Of a stretch of 23,521 nt of DNA, positions 7,587 through 9,035 are shown in pieces. The stretch's first letter is position 1. Each line of letters opens with the position of its first letter. Where the stretch lies: the NCBI GenBank assembly GCA_001824325.1, contig MHXC01000042.1, forward strand, positions 1 to 23,521, given 5' to 3'. The notes beneath the pieces are model-generated. The model ran no database searches and was not told where the DNA came from. It saw nothing but the letters and a program-made list of their open reading frames with translations. Position numbers and translations under genes: made by a program. Source of the DNA: Parcubacteria group bacterium RIFCSPHIGHO2_01_FULL_47_10b (lineage in GTDB: Bacteria; Patescibacteriota; Minisyncoccia; 2-01-FULL-47-10).

Positions 7587-8273
7587 CTAATTCCACAATT
7601 GTATTATATTGTAAAATGCATTACGTTTCCGCTCCAAATAATACCGATATGACACATTCTTGTACATAAATTCGAATAAAGCAATACTATCGTACGCTGC
7701 AAATGCTAATTCGAATCCTCCCCCTGGTTTCACTTGCAATGAACCACCTGTTACTATCTTTGCTGCCTGAAGCTGTTTATGGAGTTCTTTGAGAAAAACG
7801 CGACTACCGCTGGTAAAGCGTGAATGGAATGCTCGTCCAATCGTATTATTCCGATTCTTTCTTTTGTATTCAACGTACACAACCCCTCCGTCACCATCAA
7901 AGTATCCTCTCACCAGATGTTTTAGATGCTGTCTCGGTATATATGTAGGAAACTCGATCCGTAAACTTTTATTTGGGATCACTCCGTACATGGAAGTCAG
8001 TACCATCACCATATGCTTGCTGCCGATTTGAAGTGTATATGCTTTCTTTCGGTGCTGATATTTCCCTTTCCTAGTACGAACTCCGATGCGATGCTCCGAC
8101 TGCAAAATGCTTCGAATTTTCCCAATGATCTCTTTGTCTGTCGACGTAAATCCGAGATAATGCGATCCACGAACATTGATGTTCACATAGCCATCGGCCA
8201 TCAAAAATCCAAGCACATACGCCATGTGCGGCGACCATGTATCGAAAAATGTTTCATCGACATACTTGCGCAT
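7587..8273 (-). CDS. Free-standing LAGLIDADG homing endonuclease
   Basis: The 228-residue protein has two LAGLIDADG helices: AYVLGFLMADGYV at residues 18-30 (acidic residue D27) and HLVRGYFDGDGGV at 119-131 (acidic residue D128). Two motifs about 100 residues apart indicate a single-chain, pseudo-dimeric endonuclease able to cut an asymmetric site. Basic stretches suited to DNA contact lie around residues 66-78 (RTRKGKYQHRKK) and 137-142. The frame is intact and both motif acids are present, so it may be active. It is not inside an intron or intein: it sits between complete tRNA-Met and tRNA-Asp genes, with a promoter of its own directly upstream. A group I intron without an ORF lies in the tRNA-fMet gene about 420 bases upstream of its start. 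LAGLIDADG maturases or regulatory relatives are an alternative role. Confidence 0.9.
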   Translation of the reverse strand: MRKYVDETFFDTWSPHMAYVLGFLMADGYVNINVRGSHYLGFTSTDKEIIGKIRSILQSEHRIGVRTRKGKYQHRKKAYTLQIGSKHMVMVLTSMYGVIPNKSLRIEFPTYIPRQHLKHLVRGYFDGDGGVVYVEYKRKNRNNTIGRAFHSRFTSGSRVFLKELHKQLQAAKIVTGGSLQVKPGGGFELAFAAYDSIALFEFMYKNVSYRYYLERKRNAFYNIIQLWN

Positions 8274-8649: not shown

Positions 8650-9035
8650 TTGCGGGGGAGGGATTCGAACCCTCAAACCTTCGGGTTATGCAGTTACCAT
8701 CTACAGCTTTCGCTGCCCCATCGATACAAATATCATAATGACATAGTAACCGATGATTGTTTGTGGTCTGGACTATCCCTTGTCGCTGCATAAAGTTAGC
8801 GTTGTTGGCGAACTCCATACATAGCGACCCCACCGTCTAGTCTCTACACCTTCTAATCATCTCGCTCGATCAAATGGTCGAACAAACGATTAGCTTGGCT
8901 CGGGATCACCAATTCGTAAAAATTTCCTCAATTCTTCAAATAGGCTTCCCCGAATTTGATGGGTTTCTTACCTAGCTATTACTAACCAGGAGGCCCAATT
9001 TGAGCCCGACGTGCTGCCGGTTACACCACCCCGCG
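8650..9035 (-). tRNA. Initiator tRNA-fMet (CAU) split by a group I intron
   Basis: The two exons, 9003-9035 (33 nt) and 8650-8690 (41 nt), join to a full initiator tRNA. The 5' exon starts CGCGGGGTGG and ends GTCGGGCT; the 3' exon starts CATAACCCGAAGG and ends CCCCCGCAA. Initiator hallmarks are present: the unpaired C1-A72 position, three consecutive G-C pairs in the anticodon stem (G29-31 with C39-41), anticodon loop CTCATAA, discriminator A. The match to E. coli tRNA-fMet over the acceptor and anticodon arms is very close. The 11:24 pair is U-A, whereas E. coli initiator has A-U. CCA is not encoded. The intron lies between U33 and C34. No second uninterrupted copy is in this window, so splicing may be essential for translation initiation. 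Confidence 0.94.
8691..9002 (-). ncRNA. Group I intron (IC3-like) in tRNA-fMet, 312 nt, no ORF
   Basis: A self-splicing ribozyme by its core elements, read on the minus strand. The 5' exon ends in U and the intron in G, as group I splicing requires. P1 can form between exon GGGCU and the guide GGCCU just inside the intron. A Q-like CCCGAGCCAAGC is at 8893-8904, the R element GAGACTAGACGG (P7 5' side) at 8833-8844, and the S element AAGGGATAGTCC (P7 3' side) at 8770-8781. P8 is 8824-8828 with 8782-8786, and a GAAA-capped hairpin (CAGC-GAAA-GCTG, 8704-8715) lies near the 3' end. Order and wording of these elements strongly resemble the cyanobacterial tRNA-Leu intron. There is no endonuclease ORF inside. 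Confidence 0.92.

Follow-up and report, generated by a model that had tools for sequence, protein, structure and literature searches.

Group I introns in the gene of the initiator tRNA, tRNA-fMet, are known from the cyanobacteria Synechocystis PCC 6803 and Gloeobacter (Biniszkiewicz 1994 and Paquin 1997, as cited in PMC8450103 and PMC3610870). A PD-(D/E)-XK endonuclease is placed in P1 of the Synechocystis intron by PMC3073962, and a passage of PMC5733544 mentions an ORF in the fMet introns of Dermocarpa, Scytonema and Synechocystis. PMC8450103 attributes the lack of an fMet or Ile2 prediction in 36 bacterial genomes to group I introns, naming the fMet genes of Gloeobacter and Synechocystis, and describes tRNAscan-SE as missing such intron-split genes in other genomes. 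For CPR bacteria, an excerpt of PMC8172020 reports group I introns in the tRNAs of circular, mostly CPR genomes, and PMC11270868 deals with rRNA introns, the word "tRNA" being absent from its main text. A 2025 preprint, cited in PMC12641178, concerns by its title group I introns in Patescibacteria tRNA genes, i.e. the same host phylum and type of gene as those considered here, and may already cover such genes.

The window (the whole stretch of DNA analysed, 23,521 nt from a Parcubacteria group bacterium) contains a split tRNA-fMet gene followed by two further tRNA genes and an endonuclease-like ORF, all on the minus strand:

9035-9003, minus strand: tRNA-fMet 5' exon, bases 1-33, 33 nt, ending GGGCT at the junction; sequence CGCGGGGTGGTGTAACCGGCAGCACGTCGGGCT
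9002-8691, minus strand: group I intron, 312 nt, starting CAAATTGGGCC and ending GGTAACTG, without a long open frame
8690-8650, minus strand: tRNA-fMet 3' exon, C34 to the discriminator A73, 41 nt, CCA not encoded; sequence CATAACCCGAAGGTTTGAGGGTTCGAATCCCTCCCCCGCAA
8409-8338, minus strand: elongator-type tRNA-Met(CAT), intact, the next gene 3' of fMet (RF00005, ARAGORN)
8273-7587, minus strand: LAGLIDADG_3 homing-endonuclease-like ORF of 228 aa (PF14528, E 1.7e-10), outside the intron
7581-7508, minus strand: tRNA-Asp(GTC) (RF00005, ARAGORN)

The exon and intron coordinates on the minus strand given in an earlier note, which was made from the letters of the window, are exact to the base. ARAGORN missed the split gene in the window and called the neighbouring tRNA-Met and tRNA-Asp alone; when the exons were joined, the product was called as tRNA-Met(cat). 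The dinucleotide CA stands on both sides of the junction, so that cuts after U33, C34 or A35 would yield an identical tRNA. Among these three cuts, only that after U33 gives a 5' exon ending in U together with an intron ending in G. The insertion point between U33 and C34, which the earlier note had regarded as possibly off by one or two bases, is thus the only one of the three to satisfy the U-G rule, and the U at the 5' splice site and the terminal G of the intron are both present as it had described. The ten cyanobacterial fMet loci that were read share the gene and the U33|C34 site with the window and resemble it at the 3' terminus of the intron, and the likeness to cyanobacterial core wording pointed out in that note is borne out by a homologous core; the site is given as "anticodon loop" only in the cited cyanobacterial passages, and the exact U33|C34 position is our own reading. 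However, the window copy differs from the cyanobacterial fMet introns in its host phylum, in being without an ORF and in standing separately in the tree.

The joined tRNA displays a C1 x A72 mismatch and three G-C pairs (GGG/CCC) in the anticodon stem, both features of initiators. In the E. coli initiator tRNA, pair 11:24 is of the initiator type, A11-U24. The corresponding pair in the window is U11-A24, not A-U, and the variable loop of the joined tRNA has one extra base compared with the E. coli initiator. Both are small deviations from the "near-textbook" initiator of the earlier note. The pattern of the 3' exon has a single match in the window, and 0 of 100 shuffles contained it.

The intron was matched by the Rfam covariance model RF00028 over positions 9012-8749 with 51.1 bits (E 1.8e-10), i.e. 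1.1 bits above the gathering score of 50, and the model check proposed in the earlier note thereby came out positive. Subgroup IC3 is the usual label for group I introns of tRNA genes. The helices below were picked by eye from the group I layout, and their pair counts are a pairing check, not a blind test; the blind test is model R1, described further on.

9007-8991, minus strand: P1, exon GGGCU (9007-9003) with guide GGCCU (8995-8991), 5/5 pairs
8963-8958 with 8834-8829, minus strand: P3, 6/6 pairs
8954-8949 with 8904-8899, minus strand: P4, 6/6 pairs
8945-8939 with 8914-8908, minus strand: P5, inside P4, 6/7 pairs
8842-8838 with 8775-8771, minus strand: P7, 5/5 pairs, enclosing P8
8828-8823 with 8787-8782, minus strand: P8, 6/6 pairs
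8755-8751 with 8723-8719, minus strand: P9, 5/5 pairs
8715-8712 with 8707-8704, minus strand: GAAA-capped hairpin CAGC/GCTG, similar in many other fMet introns

In addition, P2 pairs at 8/8 and P6a at 6/6 positions. The U33.G pair of P1 sits at the 5' splice site, and the P1 loop is 7 nt long. P10 appears short (UG with CA), the guide reading UUG against AUG in some relatives, such as L060, L063 and L073 by our own reading. The longest stop-free stretch of the intron in the three forward frames is 48 codons, and tblastn with the intron ORF of locus L065 as query found no PD-(D/E)xK (I-Ssp6803I-type) ORF anywhere in the window.

The assignment made in the earlier note, a group I intron between U33 and C34 of tRNA-fMet, is accordingly supported by RF00028, by model R1, and by the pairing of junction and helices. 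Judging from sequence comparison, we place at roughly 0.93 the probability that the only fMet gene found here carries a U33|C34 group I intron of a widespread fMet (CAU-tRNA) family, and that this intron would be excised to leave a normal initiator tRNA. The intron transcript would fold into the usual P1-P9 ribozyme, with the end of exon 1, GGGCU, pairing with the internal guide and U33 making the U.G pair of the 5' splice site. Attack by guanosine would release exon 1, which would in turn attack behind the terminal G, and the exons would be ligated as ...GGGCU-CAUAACCCG..., a normal initiator tRNA with the expected spliced junction ...GTCGGGCT-CATAACCC.... Splicing before or alongside tRNA maturation would then be needed for translation to start. 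The window copy, without an ORF, is probably just inherited now; movement of the family by homing is suggested by relatives whose P1 loop holds a PD-(D/E)xK-type ORF.

The window genome comprises 1.01 Mb in 66 contigs and is 92.8% complete. Among the best 120 of 4798 relatives of its PheT protein, those named beyond "bacterium" are Patescibacteria, Parcubacteria or Nealsonbacteria, in line with the CPR host presumed earlier; among the relatives listed, the best-scoring non-self match has 36% identity and the highest identity is 38%. The search for another fMet gene, suggested in the same note, returned none in the 92.8%-complete assembly: among the 46 RF00005 hits the elongator is the sole CAT tRNA, and a BLAST search of the window genome with the split gene recovered the gene itself and a tRNA-Leu 3' half, with no other fMet-like sequence. 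ARAGORN, applied to stretches covering all 46 RF00005 hits, called no tRNA-Phe; it also left uncalled L055:1-161, an odd tRNA-like sequence with an unclear anticodon arm, which reaches 33.8 bits with RF00005. A tRNA-Phe(GAA) gene is present at L009:1141-1406 (minus strand), where it is split after U33 by a 265-nt group I intron (RF00028 91.4 bits) that, like the intron of the window, ends in G. However, this intron lacks the fMet-type 3' end and reaches only 24.9 bits with R1. No intact tRNA-Phe gene was found in the window genome by RF00005 or ARAGORN and, given that the sole CAT tRNA is an elongator, fMet and Phe are each represented, among the genes found, by a split copy alone.

RF00028 gave 10 matches at E <= 0.001 in the window genome, 6 of them over gathering, and these are the fMet and tRNA-Phe introns, seven that fall in the 23S region and one next to 16S sequence; the rRNA intron loci are L010 and L011, on contigs C33 and C65. 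The same genome has a tRNA-Ile(TAT) and no CAT tRNA was found besides the elongator Met, and Ile2 seems to be replaced. For Thr, ARAGORN on the RF00005 stretches gave CGT only, a gap that may come from the assembly. Between the split tRNA-Phe and a tRNA-Gly, at L009:353-1009 (minus strand, contig C43), is an ORF of 218 aa whose product has an HTH domain (PF13384, E 4e-06); it ends 6 nt before tRNA-Gly, a layout equal to that of the LAGLIDADG_3 gene in the window.

Named genomes were scanned for a tRNA 3' exon AACCC.AAGG in which position 33 is not T, and 80 loci of at least 115 were listed. GCAT stands at the junction in 38 of the 80; L090, with a GCAT junction but without an intron core, was set aside as doubtful, and the remaining 37 are credible, homologous introns at U33|C34, with the 5' exon junction read in 32 of them. 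By record title the 37 loci fall into at least 11 phyla, although most are metagenome bins whose titles can err. Among those listed, Cyanobacteria account for 10, Nitrospirota for 7, Omnitrophota for 6, Acidobacteriota for 4, Rhodothermota for 3 and Methylomirabilota for 2, with one each from Actinomycetota, Pseudomonadota, Thermodesulfobacteriota, Bacteroidota and Eremiobacterota. Of the 38 GCAT loci, 20 score at or above the gathering threshold of RF00028 and the rest stay below it (e.g. L056, 46.9 bits). An ORF of the I-Ssp6803I type lies inside five of the six long introns of the named set (L065, L074, L076, L108 and L132). We take the L065-type ORF to belong to the PD-(D/E)xK family, a name that follows the description of the Synechocystis intron mentioned above. 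At locus L100 the junction reads ACAT, a 5' exon lies some 0.6 kb upstream and RF00028 gives no match. The scan also returned uninterrupted fMet-like genes with C33 in place of U33 (GGGCCCAT), hosted by Magasanikbacteria, Kuenenbacteria, Parcubacteria, Weissella/Leuconostoc and some archaea (L062, L077, L113 and L121; Weissella/Leuconostoc loci such as L061, L066 and L067).

A covariance model, R1, was built from the intron 3' half and tRNA 3' exon of 32 fMet introns, with the window excluded and with L081, L085, L117 and L120 (Acidobacteria with a shortened 3' half), L090 and L094 omitted. R1 scored the window at 107.6 bits over 8852-8646, to which the tRNA 3' exon in the model contributes. 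The intron of L172, a cyanobacterial tRNA-Leu named from its sequence, reached 73.2 bits, and other cyanobacterial group I introns gave 20.2 bits (L179) and 17.4 bits (L173). Within the window genome, besides the tRNA-Phe intron, the elongator tRNA-Met gave 16.8 bits, and the rRNA loci returned no match at E <= 1. The gap between the window and the other introns thus places the former in the fMet intron lineage, not just among group I introns in general.

R1 was then run against 379 genomes of the window's phylum. Matches at E <= 0.001 occur in 302 of these, the inspected rows below 60 bits being mixed. At 89.6 bits or more, 22 genomes remain, which were classified by exon reading: 12 have the intron in fMet (the window's and 11 others, the 5' exon having been read in 9 of the 11) and 10 in a different CAU tRNA, again at U33|C34 (L192 and L194-L202). 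These ten are presumably tRNA-Ile2-like, by comparison with the consensus of that tRNA. Since the loci classified were the top 22 and the next eight (L203-L210), 12 of 379 is a lower bound for fMet-intron genomes. At L203 (genome G006, of the window's class) an fMet intron lies between U36 and A37 (RF00028 78.3 bits), and the joined exons give tRNA-Met(cat); at L204 (G485) and L207 (G497), tRNA-Thr(UGU) is split after U33 (81.2 and 77.9 bits, respectively), the joined exons being called tRNA-Thr(tgt) by ARAGORN. L209 has an intron in a tRNA left unnamed, and at L205, L206, L208 and L210 the R1 match falls on an intact tRNA-Met. The fMet loci L183, L185 and L188 encode a protein 63-65% identical to the L065 intron ORF. 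The rarity implied by the earlier note is not supported, the site being occupied in at least 11 phyla and in at least 12 of the 379 genomes of the window's own phylum.

The exact 3'-exon pattern was also tried as a measure of prevalence in the window's class and was rejected: the interrupted form was found in 1 of 383 genomes, the window's, and the uninterrupted control in 9 of 383. Initiator anticodon stems vary in this class and render the exact pattern too insensitive, and R1 was therefore used instead. Two relatives of the class, L016 and L018, have initiator anticodon stems without the GGG/CCC triple. A DNA search with the whole split gene against 55 genomes (the window's and 54 relatives) found no other intron copy; this is a weak test, as G006, which has another fMet intron (L203), is among them.

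In the tree that included the Patescibacteria rows, the window grouped with L189, L190 and L191 (98/88), the fMet introns of genomes G452, G557 and G537, which all belong to one family of another Patescibacteria class. These introns share with the window the tRNA and the 3'-side junction; for two of them the 5' exon was read as well. The cyanobacterial rows, with one exception among the ten, stand apart from the window in a starred group (96/97), and a special tie to cyanobacteria is not supported. In the tree built without the Patescibacteria rows, the window had a long branch and was placed with Omnitrophota introns. Its branch length is 0.54-0.93, which could reflect relaxed constraint. Measured along the branches, L076 (Desulfococcaceae) is the closest single row at a path length of 1.05, followed by L190 at 1.09, and the highest identity of the window to any tree row is 67%, to an Omnitrophota row. 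The trees rest on about 206 columns and omit L059, L081, L090, L094, L117 and L120, and the rRNA introns were dropped as too distant; the few columns and the long branches make finer claims of ancestry unsafe. The remaining Patescibacteria fMet rows require six changes on the drawn tree, of which the starred branches force two. Six changes would fit repeated movement or loss, without proving either. The favoured reading is that the window intron represents a Patescibacteria sub-lineage of an old mobile family.

The LAGLIDADG_3 gene of the window ends 4-5 nt before tRNA-Asp. Its relatives number 300 at E <= 0.001, and the 120 listed include some named as Patescibacteria homing endonucleases; relatives at E <= 1e-10 occur in 25 of 239 phylum genomes. 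A same-strand tRNA lies within 100 nt 3' of the match in 21 of the 30 loci examined, at -36 to +6 nt of the stop in 20 of these. Frames of at least 100 aa end -41 to +10 nt from a same-strand tRNA start in 21 of 28 cases, against 1 of 97 controls (the remaining ORFs of 100 aa or more at these loci), and the tRNA anchors of these 21 frames are Asp (11), Leu (5), Cys (4) and Phe (1). The loci concerned are:

window 7587-8273, minus strand, and L212, L213, L215-L218, L220-L222, L224-L226, L230-L232, L234-L237 and L240: tRNA-anchored LAGLIDADG_3 loci

A limited literature search, covering sources in part, yielded no report of a tRNA-anchored LAGLIDADG family.

Several other explanations of the split gene were weighed against the main reading. 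Recent acquisition of the intron from a cyanobacterium, one reading of the "lateral transfer" raised earlier, would account for the site, core and similar 3' terminus shared with cyanobacterial fMet introns, and the sporadic distribution and the ORF-bearing relatives fit lateral movement in general. However, the grouping with the Patescibacteria introns L189-L191 (98/88), the separate cyanobacterial group of nine of ten rows (96/97) and the best identity to an Omnitrophota row (67%) argue against it, with the caveats of about 206 columns, a long branch and L076 as the nearest row by path, and such a transfer is regarded as very unlikely. Only marginally less so is a dead relic in a pseudogene, with initiation served by an unassembled fMet copy. 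The long branch and an RF00028 score barely over gathering fit this explanation, and a second fMet gene could be missing from an assembly that is 92.8% complete; conversely, the core helices and both exons are intact, no other fMet sequence was found, and the same genome has yielded tRNA-Phe, too, as a split gene only. A chimera of the assembly, in which two tRNA halves were joined by chance, would draw on the fact that this is a single draft assembly of 66 contigs, but what lies between the halves is a full-length member of the very family expected at exactly U33|C34, which leaves this explanation scarcely credible.

It is also conceivable, albeit improbable, that the fMet intron and the LAGLIDADG_3 gene form one element, the gene, which lies 0.4 kb downstream, acting in trans to mobilise the intron (collaborative homing). 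The gene and the intron share cluster and strand both in the window and in G557 (L219), and the fMet intron of G537 has a homologue of the gene 1.9 kb away, on the opposite strand; of the three introns that cluster with the window, two come from G557 and G537. Genomes with a homologue also carry an fMet intron in 4 of 25 cases (the window's, G109, G537 and G557) compared with 12 of 379 overall, an overlap that is weak, as two of the four come from one family and the window genome is included by design. Against this, no regular co-occurrence of the two was found: a strong R1 match is present in only 2 of the 30 homologue loci (flanks of about 1.5 kb), most of the family having no fMet intron nearby, and in G109 the two are 28 kb apart. 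The homologues are, moreover, anchored to tRNA-Asp, -Cys, -Leu and -Phe genes. In L183, L184, L185 and L188, tRNA-Met and tRNA-Asp come next after an intron-bearing fMet gene, and the 0-243 nt between Met and Asp leave no room for a LAGLIDADG_3 gene in these four clusters. The LAGLIDADG_3 gene is thus read as a putative tRNA-anchored element independent of the intron, and a looser link is possible.

A wider proposal is put forward tentatively, at odds clearly short of even. Patescibacteria tRNA clusters may be hot spots for two independent selfish systems, namely the U33 group I introns of CAU, GAA and UGU tRNAs and a perhaps undescribed LAGLIDADG_3 family at the 5' ends of Asp, Cys, Leu and Phe tRNAs, whose frame often enters the tRNA and for which the tRNA start would serve as both target and shelter. 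Both would meet in the fMet-Met-Asp cluster of the window, where the nuclease could carry the split fMet gene along by co-conversion.

Returning to the main reading, the window intron is ordinary for its family, and fMet group I introns are already known from cyanobacteria; what is added here is a copy in a divergent Patescibacteria genome. The case is raised a little by the number of group I introns gathered in a genome of 1 Mb and by the failure of the searches to recover intact fMet and tRNA-Phe genes from it, which makes it probable that translation in this organism depends on several ribozymes. As the split fMet gene is missed by ARAGORN, and such genes elsewhere by tRNAscan-SE according to PMC8450103, genomes of this kind can seem to be without an initiator tRNA. 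The distribution of the intron, in at least 11 named phyla and at least 12 of 379 genomes of the host phylum, provides material for testing how one intron site has spread across bacteria.
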